Assembly (NCBI GenBank): GCA_011390205.1
Contig: JAABSX010000018.1
Span: 1 to 63,952 of the forward strand
Direction of reading: 5' to 3'
Source: Microscillaceae bacterium
GTDB taxonomy: Bacteria; Bacteroidota; Bacteroidia; Cytophagales; Microscillaceae
DNA: 63,952 nt
This document shows, in pieces, positions 14,372 to 19,161 of the stretch. Position 1 is the first letter of the stretch; the number at the start of each line of letters is the position of its first letter. The notes under the pieces were generated by a model. The model was not told the DNA's origin. It worked only from the letters and a program-made list of their open reading frames with translations, and ran no database searches. Made by a program: the position numbers and the translations under genes.

Positions 14372-15097
14372 ATGAAAATCACCCCAATAGAAATCAAACA
14401 AAAGAATTTTACTGTAAAGTCATTCGGAAAAGGCTTTGACCGTGAGGAGGTTCAGCAATTTCTGACACAGCTCGCAGAAGAATGGAGTGCTATGGCAGAG
14501 CAAAACACAGAGCTAAGAATCAAAACACAGCTCCTCGAAAAAGAAATTCAAAAACTCAAAGAAGTGGAAAGCTCTCTCTTCCGAACCCTTAAAACTGCCG
14601 AAGATACCAGCAATAATATCGTGGAGCAAGCCCGCAAAACTGCCGAACTCAAAGTACAAGAGGCCCAAATCAAAGCGGATGTACTGCTCAATGATGCACG
14701 TGCACAGGCAAAAGAAATCGTCAGAAAATCACAAGAACGTGCCAGACAAGTGCTAGAGGAAGTTATCAGTGAGGTCAAAGAAAAAAAACAAGCATTCAGA
14801 GAAATAGAAGAACACAGAGAAAACTTCTTGTTAGAGTTAAAAGGCTTTATGAGCAACTCCCTGGACAAACTCAATCACTTTCAGACAAAAGGCGGTACAC
14901 TTCAATCTATTGACCAAAAAATAACTAAAGTACAGGAGTTTTTGGAAGAAAAAGAAGAACTCATAGACCAGCAAAATATCATACAACAACAAGAAGAAGA
15001 AGAAGAAGTGCAGAGGCAAGAAAACCAGACAGAGCAAGCCGAAGAAATGCTCAAGGATTCGGATGAACATTCTTTTTTTGATGACCTAAAAAACTAA
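14372..15097 (+). CDS. DivIVA domain-containing coiled-coil protein
   Basis: This 241-residue protein begins MKITPIEIKQKNFTVKSFGKGFDREEVQQFL, the DivIVA lipid-binding/curvature-sensing head (residues about 1-40, with F-x-Y-like RGFDREEV-QFL). A long coiled coil follows to about residue 160, and an acidic Glu-rich tail runs from about 195 to 241. In Firmicutes and Actinobacteria such proteins mark septa and poles; Bacteroidota homologues exist but are poorly understood. It sits between a WD40 scaffold and another small coiled-coil protein. No membrane segment is visible, so localisation would be by membrane-curvature binding of the head. Confidence 0.88.
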   Translation: MKITPIEIKQKNFTVKSFGKGFDREEVQQFLTQLAEEWSAMAEQNTELRIKTQLLEKEIQKLKEVESSLFRTLKTAEDTSNNIVEQARKTAELKVQEAQIKADVLLNDARAQAKEIVRKSQERARQVLEEVISEVKEKKQAFREIEEHRENFLLELKGFMSNSLDKLNHFQTKGGTLQSIDQKITKVQEFLEEKEELIDQQNIIQQQEEEEEVQRQENQTEQAEEMLKDSDEHSFFDDLKN

Positions 15098-15615: not shown

Positions 15616-16647
15616 CTAGCCCACAAGATTCATTTTCACAAAATCTTGAATGTCGATCATTCCGATAGGTGCATTGTTTTCTGTAACGATGATATTATCT
15701 ACGCCCGTTTCTTTGAATATTTTGACGGCTTCATATAAAAGTGCATCAGAGGTAATCGTAACGGGTACTTTGGCAGCAGACACAAGGTCTCCCATGGCTT
15801 TTTCTAGCAATGCCTTGCCAGAGTTGCGAAGGTTTCGGCGGAGGTCTCCGTCTGTAAAGATTCCTGCAAGCTCACCACTTTCCTTGAGCACTGTTACAGC
15901 ACCCAAGCCTGAGTCAGTCATCCGTGAAAGTGCTTCAAATACAGTTTCATTCATTTTGACAGTAGGGTTAGCCTTAGCGATGACCTCTTTGACGGTTACG
16001 GTCATGAGTTTGGTATGCTCCACAAACTGCTCTGTGCCGAGGTCTGTAAATACATTTTCAGTCAATACTTTCATGACTTTCCAGGGGGCAGTAATGGTAT
16101 GTACTTTGGAGAGTAAAGCAGTACGGATATGCTCAGGATAACGAACAGAGGAGAACATTACTTTGGTATCATAGCCATAATGATTGACCGTCTCGGTGCA
16201 TTGCTCTACCAGTTTGAGGGCATCATGCCCTTGGTCTTGCAGGCGGCCTACGAGTGGGCAGACGTAATTAGCGCCTGCTGCCATTGCCATATAGGCTTGA
16301 TTAAGGGTATAAATCAGGTGCACATTGACCATCATGCCCTCATTGCGAAGCATTTTACAGGCTCTAACACCTTCATTAGACACAGGGATTTTGAAGACAG
16401 TTTTGTCTTTTTCTAATCCGAGACTAAGTAAACGCTGTGCTTCGGCAAGCACTTCTTCGGCGGTATCTCCGAGGGCTTCTACCTGTAGCACAGGCACCAT
16501 TTTAGAGAGTTTGAGAATAGCCCCATCAATGTCAGTAATTCCTTGACGGTGCATAAAGGTAGGTGTAGTGGTCAGACCTGCCAAGAAACCCAGCTTGAAG
16601 GCTTCTTCTATTTCATTAAAATCTACTGAATCAAGATATAATTCCAT
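15616..16647 (-). CDS. transaldolase/fructose-6-P aldolase-like domain fused to a KdsD-type CBS pair
   Basis: This 343-residue fusion has residues 1-215 as a TIM barrel of the transaldolase/fructose-6-phosphate aldolase family. The start is MELYLDS, the Schiff-base Lys86 is in FKIPVS, and PLVGRLQD follows. Residues about 215-343 are two CBS motifs; GIFTDGDLRRNL is nearly identical to the CBS part of arabinose-5-phosphate isomerase KdsD. Two residues conserved in the family are changed: the Asn of TTNPS is Thr28 (TTTPT), and the Thr of the N-x-T strand is His110 (NVHLIY). Position 55 is Gln, as in fructose-6-phosphate aldolase. The gene follows kdsA by 26 bases on the same strand. A link to arabinose-5-phosphate/KDO supply is inferred; the reaction is unknown. 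Confidence 0.85.
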   Translation of the reverse strand: MELYLDSVDFNEIEEAFKLGFLAGLTTTPTFMHRQGITDIDGAILKLSKMVPVLQVEALGDTAEEVLAEAQRLLSLGLEKDKTVFKIPVSNEGVRACKMLRNEGMMVNVHLIYTLNQAYMAMAAGANYVCPLVGRLQDQGHDALKLVEQCTETVNHYGYDTKVMFSSVRYPEHIRTALLSKVHTITAPWKVMKVLTENVFTDLGTEQFVEHTKLMTVTVKEVIAKANPTVKMNETVFEALSRMTDSGLGAVTVLKESGELAGIFTDGDLRRNLRNSGKALLEKAMGDLVSAAKVPVTITSDALLYEAVKIFKETGVDNIIVTENNAPIGMIDIQDFVKMNLVG

Positions 16648-16673
16648 ACGTGTTTTAGAGTTTTAGGCTTTAG

Positions 16674-17519
16674 TTATTTTTCAGAAATGGTTTCGTATTT
16701 TTTGGTGATGGCGTGTATTTCTAGGAGAGGTTTCATAAATTCTTCTAAATCAAATACACACAGTTGGCTTGCAGCATCACAAAGTGCAGTATTGGGGTCG
16801 GGGTGCGTCTCTATAAAAATGCCATCTATGCCCGCAGCAACACCTGCTCTTGAGAGGGTCGGGAGGTATTCTCTTGCCCCGCCTTTGGAGTCTTTGCTAG
16901 GGATGCCATATTTGCGAATAGAGTGTGTTACATCAAATACTACAGGATATTCTAGCTGGTTAAGATGATAAAAACTACGGGGATCTACCACCAAATCATT
17001 GTAGCCAAAAGTATAGCCACGCTCTGTCAAGATAATGTTATGATTGCCTTGGCTTTCTACTTTAATGACGGGGTGCTTCATGTTTTCAGGTGCAAGAAAC
17101 TGCCCGTGCTTAAGGTTTACTACTTTGCCCGTTTTGGCTGCTGCCACTACCAGAGATGTTTGCATACAAAGGTAAGCAGGAATCTGAAGCACGTCTAGCA
17201 CATCAGCTGCGGCTGCTGCTTCGTGAGGATGATGAATATCAGAAAGCAGTGTAAAACCAAATTCTTTTTTGACTTTTTCTAAGATTTTTAGTCCCTCTTC
17301 TAGGCCTGGCCCATGGTAGTAATCCAGTGAGCTGCGGTTATCTTTGGTATAAGAAGATTTGAAGATGATCTCTATTTTCAGATTTTCTGATATTTTTTTG
17401 AGATGCTCAGCAGTACGCATCATGAGGCTTTCATCCTCAATCACACAAGGACCCGAAATAAGGAAGAGTGAATCGTCTCCACAGGCTATATCACCTACTT
17501 TTACAATTTTTTTTGACAT
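16674..17519 (-). CDS. kdsA: 3-deoxy-8-phosphooctulonate (KDO-8-P) synthase
   Basis: This 281-residue protein condenses phosphoenolpyruvate with arabinose-5-phosphate to KDO-8-phosphate, for LPS inner core. Motifs are LISGPCVIEDES, SSYTKDNRSSLDYYHGPGLE, DIHHPHEA and FIETHPDPN. Cys25 in GPCV marks the metal-dependent class (the metal-independent enzymes have Asn here). The longest frame starts at a TTG at 17675. The ATG at 17519 is preferred, because MSKKIVKVGDIACGDD is the normal KdsA start and a -7 promoter element (17563-17570) lies inside the longer frame. It is the first gene of a two-gene unit with the transaldolase-CBS protein. Confidence 0.96.
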   Translation of the reverse strand: MSKKIVKVGDIACGDDSLFLISGPCVIEDESLMMRTAEHLKKISENLKIEIIFKSSYTKDNRSSLDYYHGPGLEEGLKILEKVKKEFGFTLLSDIHHPHEAAAAADVLDVLQIPAYLCMQTSLVVAAAKTGKVVNLKHGQFLAPENMKHPVIKVESQGNHNIILTERGYTFGYNDLVVDPRSFYHLNQLEYPVVFDVTHSIRKYGIPSKDSKGGAREYLPTLSRAGVAAGIDGIFIETHPDPNTALCDAASQLCVFDLEEFMKPLLEIHAITKKYETISEK

Positions 17520-18032: not shown

Positions 18033-19023
18033 CTAGCGCAGTTCAATATTTTCTTCGAGGGCTGTAAACAATTGCTCTTCAGGGTATAAGATGGCTTTTA
18101 TCAATTCTTTTTTCTTGGAGAGTTTAATGACTTGCATAGACTCGGTTTCTTCTAACTGTTCGGCGGCATGCGTAAGCGCACGTAGTGTATCGGTGCTATG
18201 GGTAGTAGCAAATACTTGTACTTCTAGTTTTTTTGCAAGGGTCAAGATGATTTTCCATAGGTCTAGCTTAACAGACCAATGCAGCCCAGTTTCAAATTCT
18301 TCTATCAAAAGCGTTCCCTTTTCACAGTTTAACAAGTGCAAAGTAATGGCAAGTAGATGATTGATACCGTCCCCCATACTGCTCAACAAAACTCTTTTTT
18401 CTTAGTTTTCTAATTTCACATAAAAGCGAGTTCGATAGCGACTTCTCTCATCTTCTACAAATGTAATCTTACTAATTTCAGGTTCTATCAGTTGTAAAGC
18501 CTTGACGACATCTTCTTCTCTATCAGTAAGGGCGATGCTGCTCCAGAGAGAAAAGAGTTGATTTTCTTGTAAATTTTTAGTCTGAACAAGACGTACATTA
18601 TTTTTTCAGCATTGCCATTGAGGCGAACCAAATGGTAAGGTCTGTTAAGTTTATCAAGTTTAAAAATTTCAGATTGCTCACCCACACTAATTTTTAACCC
18701 AAGCTCTGAGAGTTCATCAAAAAGATTGGGCATTTCTACAGTATCAAAATAAAGTTATATGCTTTCTGTAGAAAGTGAAAAATCACCACTTATTTTGATT
18801 GCCTCTTGGGCTTGGTAAGGGATTTCTCTACCATAAAATAGGTTCTTAAACAAAGCGAACATTTTTTGGGCATCAAAGACCTCTCTGTTTGGATTATTGT
18901 ATAATAACTCTCCTCTCTGTCCGAATATAAAATAAATGGCCGCAGGGTGTGCCTTGTGAATGAGTAGCCATATTGCTTCTAAAAGCGAACTTTTACCGAT
19001 GTCATTTTTTCCAATAGTGAGCA
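18033..19023 (-). pseudogene. AAA (ABC-like, OLD/AAA_21 type) ATPase, multiply disrupted
   Basis: One gene can be rebuilt across at least three lesions. The first part carries Walker A, GKNDIGKSSLLEAIW, just after 19023. An in-frame TAA lies at 18757-18755 (reads STESI-stop-LYFDTVE). A one-base loss in the A run at 18601-18606 breaks NAEK from the NVRLVQTKNLQ continuation. A second in-frame TAA at 18404-18402 splits YVKLEN from KRVLLSSMGDGIN. The rest holds the signature MGDGINHLLAI, Walker B GTLLIEEFETGLHW and the switch histidine in VFATTHS. The first 20-25 residues before Walker A are not cleanly readable. The partner is the DUF3226 gene. Such pairs resemble OLD- or PARIS-type defence modules (inference). 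Confidence 0.85.
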
Positions 19024-19161
19024 TATTTTTCAGAATATTTATTTGCAACGAGGGTACGAAAATAAATTGAAAAATGGAGTGATGAGAAACCCCCTTTTTA
19101 TATGAATGTTCAAATAAATATACACCTCCACCACCACAAAAAAATAAACAAAGCATTTAAT

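Follow-up and report, generated by a model that had tools for sequence, protein, structure and literature searches.

A transaldolase-CBS fusion protein encoded next to kdsA: a probable replacement of arabinose-5-phosphate isomerase KdsD

The fusion protein and its described relatives

Arabinose 5-phosphate (A5P) is the starting sugar of 3-deoxy-D-manno-octulosonic acid (KDO), a sugar of the outer-membrane core, and the step that makes it commits the cell to the KDO pathway. The described isomerases of the KdsD/KpsF/GutQ group combine a SIS isomerase domain with a C-terminal pair of CBS domains. Contig JAABSX010000018.1 of Microscillaceae bacterium (assembly GCA_011390205.1), a stretch of 63,952 nucleotides here called the window, contains kdsA followed by a gene that joins a transaldolase barrel to a CBS pair (hereafter, the fusion). 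The window is the whole of this contig (C34) of a 4.5-Mb genome that is 96.9% complete. The central claim of an earlier note on this DNA was that an aldolase-type barrel stands in here for the SIS isomerase domain of KdsD. It is upheld because it passed the genomic tests: the genome contains no detectable KdsD, the distribution of the two proteins is nearly exclusive, and the fusion shows both linkage to kdsA and conservation. Taken whole, the evidence makes it quite probable that in many Bacteroidota, and in some genomes titled Deltaproteobacteria, the fusion has taken over from KdsD by non-orthologous replacement and supplies A5P.

The fusion has the same kind of C-terminal CBS pair as KdsD, KpsF, and GutQ, and either KdsD or the fusion is present in 181 of the 182 KdsA-positive genomes of the order-level sample described below. 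In contrast to KdsD, it has no SIS isomerase domain and carries a transaldolase barrel in its place. The TalC-type transaldolases of Bacillus subtilis (PDB entry 3r8r) and Thermotoga maritima (1vpx) share its fold and the residues Asp6, Glu57, Lys86, Asn108, Arg135, Ser167, and Arg169. The fusion differs from them by the replacements N35T, T156H, S176C (Thr in 6 of 87 homologues), and F178L, in the numbering of Escherichia coli TalB, as well as by its CBS tail and by forming a separate clade. E. coli FsaA and FsaB also share the fold, but Gln59 and Tyr131 of FsaA correspond to Glu57 and Leu132 in the fusion. Finally, PDB entry 3upb, according to its title, is a Francisella transaldolase whose active site holds A5P covalently; however, passages of PMC7895386, whose reference 81 is the related paper, report A5P as an inhibitor, not a product. 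None of the titles and abstract beginnings listed in searches of the open-access literature describes a protein that joins a transaldolase to CBS domains, or a substitution of this kind for KdsD.

The fusion gene (positions 15616..16647, minus strand) is an ATG-initiated open reading frame (ORF) for 343 amino acids that would encode an A5P-forming enzyme replacing KdsD. It starts 26 bases after the stop codon of kdsA, which precedes it on the same strand. Only two Pfam families match it: TAL_FSA (PF00923) at residues 3 to 201, with 122.7 bits over a cut-off of 27, and CBS in two stretches, with 66.5 bits over a cut-off of 24. This domain make-up is as the earlier note had described; the SIS domain (PF01380) was not found in the protein. 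The AlphaFold2 model of the whole protein, which drew on 38 sequences, has a mean predicted local distance difference test (pLDDT) score of 89.5. The transaldolase/FSA barrel (residues 1 to 214; 16006..16647, minus strand) is matched by B. subtilis transaldolase 3r8r (Z 27.8, root mean square deviation [rmsd] 1.7, 208 residues aligned), with several transaldolases tied. Its score against the TalC/FSA equivalog TIGR00875, 160.4 bits, is under the cut-off of 245.95.

The CBS pair (residues 217 to 343; 15619..15999, minus strand) was predicted and searched alone because a structural comparison of the full-length model gave only transaldolases and related aldolases among the 50 matches listed. Its model has a pLDDT of 85.9, and the PDB entry that fits it best, both by sequence and by structure, is 4o9k, a CBS pair from a putative A5P isomerase (Z 18.6, rmsd 1.8, 123 residues aligned). 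CBS pairs of putative A5P isomerases (4o9k, 3k2v, and 3fna) rank 1, 3, and 6 in the structure list. The ligand of 4o9k, whose name falls beyond the end of the available entry title, we take to be CMP-Kdo. Against the KpsF/KdsD model TIGR00393, only the C-terminal half is matched (residues 216 to 330, 51.3 bits), which agrees with the likeness to KdsD noted earlier; in a genome-wide profile search the fusion scored 51.8 bits, from the CBS part only, under the cut-off of 203.7. Conversely, a profile of the fusion CBS pair, built from the window protein and 20 of the 80 loci introduced below (21 rows in all), gave 44 to 82 bits with 14 of 14 KdsD proteins, above the five other CBS proteins tested in the window genome (17 to 33 bits). 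The CBS pair of the fusion is of the KdsD type.

Distribution of the fusion, KdsD, and KdsA*

Full-length homologues of the fusion were found in 7 of 392 genomes from the phylum, with 59 to 66% identity, the window's own copy aside. In other phylum genomes the best match had an E value of 2.9e-40 or weaker, and the matches listed were at most 37% identical and stopped by residue 257, most of them near residue 215. A scan of one genome per species showed a family of at least 80 loci, the best 80 being 62 to 79% identical over nearly the whole length; all locus counts given here refer to these 80. By title, these loci come from Bacteroidetes and relatives, from Deltaproteobacteria/Desulfobacterales, and in a single case from Chlorobiota; within the named collection, the nearest ones have Microscillaceae in their titles (79 and 76% identity). 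In a tree of 33 of 87 fusion homologues and 22 ordinary transaldolases, the fusion barrels split off with a support of 100/100 and a long stem, in a bootstrap that had not settled. The fusion is a distinct family, present in Bacteroidota and in genomes titled Deltaproteobacteria/Desulfobacterales.

In all genome counts, KdsD means a protein over the TIGR00393 cut-off (the KpsF/GutQ subfamily). Nothing in the window genome reached these 203.7 bits, the best match being the fusion itself. The stand-alone KdsD that the earlier note proposed to search for was not detected, and the four PF01380 matches fall in GlmS (two), MurQ, and GmhA, each named by an NCBIfam model over its cut-off. A hidden SIS protein in this genome was also considered and rejected, with GlmS, MurQ, and GmhA as the only candidates and four other fusion genomes having GlmS alone. 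These four come from a PF01380 search (E up to 1e-5) of 47 fusion genomes: G190, G482, G585, and G592 give exactly two matches, in one frame, which is GlmS over its cut-off in each of the four. In these genomes, three of them from one genus (g6), A5P cannot come from an SIS protein detectable at E 1e-5.

The phylum genomes and the 216 genomes of the order (the latter at least 80% complete) are samples, with individual matches given for part of them. KdsD is present in 270 of the 392 phylum genomes and in none of the 7 with the fusion, all of which encode KdsA. In the order, a genome is counted as KdsA positive with an E value of up to 1e-50 to the window KdsA, and as having the variant subfamily KdsA* with an E value under 1e-90. 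The totals are 69 genomes with the fusion, 116 with KdsD, and 182 with KdsA. The KdsA-positive genomes include 67 with the fusion only, so that 67 of the 216 sampled genomes have the fusion and no KpsF/GutQ-family protein over the cut-off, 112 with KdsD only, 2 with both, and 1 with neither (G556, in 550 contigs and with 6% contamination). KdsD was found where KdsA was undetected in G451 and G534. Both states occur in eight families (f2, f4, f61, f62, f66, f70, f73, and f74) and in two genera, g5 (fusion or KdsD in G146, G566, and G590 versus G639) and g9 (G596 versus G317 and G555), which speaks against a single historical accident. A named collection of 50 fusion genomes, which overlaps in species with the order sample (e.g., L099 and G146), so that the counts are not additive, gives a similar picture: 47 lack KdsD over the cut-off, including 5 of the 6 titled Deltaproteobacteria or Desulfobacter-.

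Linkage of the fusion to kdsA, another check proposed in the earlier note, is common but not universal. KdsA lies upstream on the same strand in 52 of the 80 loci (50 of the 71 with at least 1 kb of upstream sequence), and in the order sample 39 of the 69 fusion genes directly follow KdsA*, within 1 kb and on the same strand.

The kdsA gene of the window (16674..17519, minus strand), recognized as such in the earlier note, encodes a KDO-8-phosphate synthase; it exceeds the cut-offs of two NCBIfam equivalogs (NF003543, 351.4 bits, cut-off 242; TIGR01362, 339 bits, cut-off 314) and belongs to KdsA*. In the alignments, this subfamily has the motif KDNRSS (17328..17345, minus strand) in place of KANR[ST]x. 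KDNR is found in 57 of 60 fusion-linked KdsA rows, the window KdsA having KDNRS and 3 rows being unread; KANR is found in 38 of 39 rows from genomes without the fusion, the remainder being unread. These controls count at least one gene twice (L140, L144) and leave out three KDNR rows (L124, L127, and L129) that had been sorted with them and come from fusion genomes. Relative to E. coli KdsA, the 54 aligned KdsA* rows show the replacements A61D (53, plus one gap), R120M (53), K139H (54), and Q205R (54) and a changed loop. With the exception of G249, this signature is absent from 49 KdsA rows of fusion-less genomes, in which eight genes are counted twice and some genomes have no KdsD over the cut-off (such as G230, G238, G337, G340, G279, and G200). 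KdsA* is present in all 69 order genomes with the fusion, whereas the 106 order genomes with an ordinary KdsA as their best match all encode KdsD and never the fusion. KdsA* thus forms a subfamily of its own that tracks the fusion.

Several observations weigh against the replacement of KdsD by the fusion. Both proteins are present in G500 and G512, which show two KdsA matches apiece, and in G401, G402, and G419 of the named collection, for which completeness figures are not given. G401 and G419 each have two KdsA proteins, a KdsA* next to the fusion and an ordinary KdsA at another site, but the single KdsA of G402 is KdsA*. Fisher's test of the exclusion gives a p value of 2.5e-46, with genomes treated as independent and shared ancestry ignored. 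At least nine KdsA-positive phylum genomes have neither protein over the cut-off (among them G230, G238, G337, G340, G279, G023, G200, G268, and G284), so other sources of A5P or missed genes exist. In the order, 3 of the 69 fusion genes are on the same contig as KdsA* but far from it, and a different contig carries the fusion in 27 cases; of the 14 fusion genes in the family to which the window belongs, 5 adjoin KdsA* and 9 do not. No source of glycolaldehyde, a possible substrate of the barrel (see below), was seen in the neighborhood clusters of the 80 loci. Passages on A5P contacts gave no usable residue list for KdsA; we take positions 61, 120, 139, and 205 to lie close to the aldose, so that the four KdsA* replacements might allow another aldose phosphate.

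It is unlikely, however, that the fusion makes a different aldose phosphate, which KdsA* would condense with phosphoenolpyruvate to an ulosonic acid other than KDO-8-phosphate, even though the KdsA* signature is conserved and all 69 order fusion genomes carry KdsA*. KdsA* passes the KdsA equivalog cut-offs, and seven order genomes have KdsA* without the fusion: G556 and six that encode KdsD (five of genus g7, and G544, in 560 contigs). In those six, KdsA* seems to use A5P made by KdsD, which weakens the reading that it makes another product. In the single-contig genome G249 (genus g7), the genes kdnA-kdnB-KdsA*-HAD-kdsB form an operon that does not include the fusion; its KdnA, KdnB, and KdsB were identified by match (the first two by 5k8b, 6.6e-128, and 5k8c, 1.2e-127), and their action on KDO is taken from their names. 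The KpsF/GutQ-family isomerase of G249 is far from this operon, beside a recQ-family gene, and scores 314 bits, under the KdsD equivalog cut-off of 505. Most simply read, KdsA* takes its A5P from the isomerase in G249, and elsewhere the fusion makes it. We strongly infer that the fusion supplies A5P.

Five of the phylum genomes with neither protein over the cut-off (G230, G238, G337, G340, and G279) combine a strong KdsA with partial KdsD matches (E 1e-44 to 1e-48), which are perhaps single-domain SIS isomerases.

Active site and possible reaction

The active site was compared in an alignment of 87 fusion homologues with E. coli FsaA and TalB and 22 ordinary transaldolases (of 23 loci, 22 gave a readable start). 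The residues listed above as shared with TalC-type transaldolases are unchanged in all 87, as in the ordinary transaldolases. They include Lys86 (16390..16392, minus strand) at the Schiff-base position (TalB K132) and Glu57 (16477..16479, minus strand) at the acid-base position (TalB E96, FsaA Q59). The earlier note had read Gln55 as the residue of the aldolase subgroup; this residue lies two positions too early, and the argument for aldolase chemistry built on it falls, the actual residue being the transaldolase-type Glu57. Its other readings were correct: Lys86 is invariant, and so are Thr28 (16564..16566, minus strand) in place of TalB N35 and His110 (16318..16320, minus strand) in place of TalB T156, two positions that are Asn and Thr in 22 of 22 ordinary transaldolases. 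In the segment Cys130-Pro131-Leu132 (16252..16260, minus strand), position 130 (TalB S176) is Cys in 81 and Thr in 6 of the 87 homologues, and Leu132 (TalB F178, FsaA Y131) is found in all 87; the earlier note did not mention these two changes, nor that the adjacent KdsA is of a variant subfamily. The fusion therefore has neither the FsaA pair Gln59 and Tyr131 nor the transaldolase residues N35, T156, S176, and F178.

Structures of TalB mutants at D17, N35, E96, T156, and S176 have been solved, judging by their titles, so these are recognized active-site positions. In transaldolases, Lys86 presumably forms the Schiff base, Glu57 acts in acid-base catalysis, and Arg135, Ser167, and Arg169 bind the acceptor phosphate. 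With the phosphate side kept and the donor side rebuilt, the barrel would fit a pentose 5-phosphate or glyceraldehyde 3-phosphate (GAP) as the substrate, with a donor other than dihydroxyacetone.

The changes at several transaldolase positions, together with the KdsD-type CBS pair, could also suggest that the main role of the fusion is to regulate KDO supply or to sense a metabolite for it, with A5P coming from an unrecognized enzyme. This is very unlikely: anticorrelation with KdsD is not expected of a regulator, the Schiff-base Lys, the acid-base Glu, and the Arg/Ser/Arg set (phosphate binding by our assumption) are kept in 87 of 87 homologues, and GlmS is the sole detectable SIS protein in four fusion genomes. 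It is highly improbable that the fusion is an ordinary transaldolase carrying a CBS tail for regulation, near kdsA by chance or for pentose-phosphate balance: its fold is closest to the B. subtilis, Thermoplasma, and T. maritima transaldolases, but the 87 homologues depart from transaldolases at four positions of the active site, the TalC/FSA equivalog cut-off is not reached, a second and shorter match of the transaldolase type occurs in the genome (C22:40339-40980, 32% identical), and kdsA linkage and the exclusion of KdsD also stand against it.

As a replacement of KdsD, the fusion would supply A5P to the adjacent KdsA* for the synthesis of KDO and, in some lineages, of 8-amino-KDO (Kdo8N). 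The barrel would most likely work through a Lys86 Schiff base on a pentose 5-phosphate or glycolaldehyde, keeping the phosphate site of transaldolases with a donor pocket rebuilt by Thr28, His110, Cys130, and Leu132, and the CBS pair would probably give feedback control by a pathway product, CMP-Kdo being the first guess. The reaction favored here is C2 epimerization of ribose 5-phosphate (R5P), in which Glu57 and His110 could deprotonate C2 between them, or a glycolaldehyde enamine bound to the enzyme could be formed and used in retro-aldol and aldol steps. The second choice is aldol addition of free glycolaldehyde. Isomerization of ribulose 5-phosphate to A5P was also considered; via the lysine it is chemically less natural because the amine would sit on C2, but a mechanism that avoids the Schiff base could still serve. 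That the fusion constitutes a new enzyme class, a Schiff-base R5P 2-epimerase forming A5P under CMP-Kdo feedback through a CBS pair shared with KdsD, is a tentative and somewhat doubtful proposal.

Parts of this chemistry have precedents. According to passages of PMC6298115 and PMC9947464, E. coli FsaA and FsaB condense glycolaldehyde with GAP to A5P, and the TalB variant F178Y forms both A5P and R5P; a transaldolase has been solved in a covalent complex with A5P (3upb, with a title ending in "Arabinose-5-P"). The transaldolase scaffold can thus hold A5P covalently and make both C2 epimers, so that a Schiff-base conversion of R5P to A5P appears plausible without a free glycolaldehyde pool. If confirmed, the fusion would provide a new reaction for a well-studied scaffold, explain apparent KDO-pathway gaps in annotated genomes, and represent a natural A5P-forming transaldolase; a better A5P aldolase is named in a passage of PMC9947464 as one possible improvement of a synthetic pathway.

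Gene neighborhood

Of the 77 loci that extend far enough downstream of the fusion, 53 encode a KdsC-like HAD protein there; it has about 230 residues in L012, L014 to L016, L049, and others. Two members tested scored 49.2 and 54.6 bits, under the KdsC cut-off of 208 (NF007019), and may represent a distinct subfamily of KDO-8-phosphate phosphatases. The neighbors in the 80 loci also include KdsB (11), KdnB (14), KdnA (13), and a WaaA-like protein (8), of which the one tested gave 197 bits against a cut-off of 438.

The genes kdnA and kdnB are responsible for the synthesis of Kdo8N. Genes resembling both are found near the fusion in L058, L065, L068, L083, L103, L107, L108, L109, L111, L113, L116, L118, and L119, and a kdnB-like gene alone in L080; in G249 (L201), kdnA and kdnB accompany KdsA*. 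The gene row in L118 is kdnA-kdnB-kdsA-fusion-HAD-kdsB. These neighborhoods suggest that Kdo8N may be common in bacteria with the fusion. In L103, L111, L113, and L116, a conserved, secreted-looking protein of about 220 residues is encoded between kdsA and the fusion.

In the window, the kdsA-fusion pair is convergent with a gene for a DivIVA-domain protein (14372-15094, plus strand). On its other side are two short ORFs on the minus strand (18033-18389 and 18755-19156), the first of which matches the C-terminal part of AAA ATPase domains; they are possibly remnants of one broken gene.

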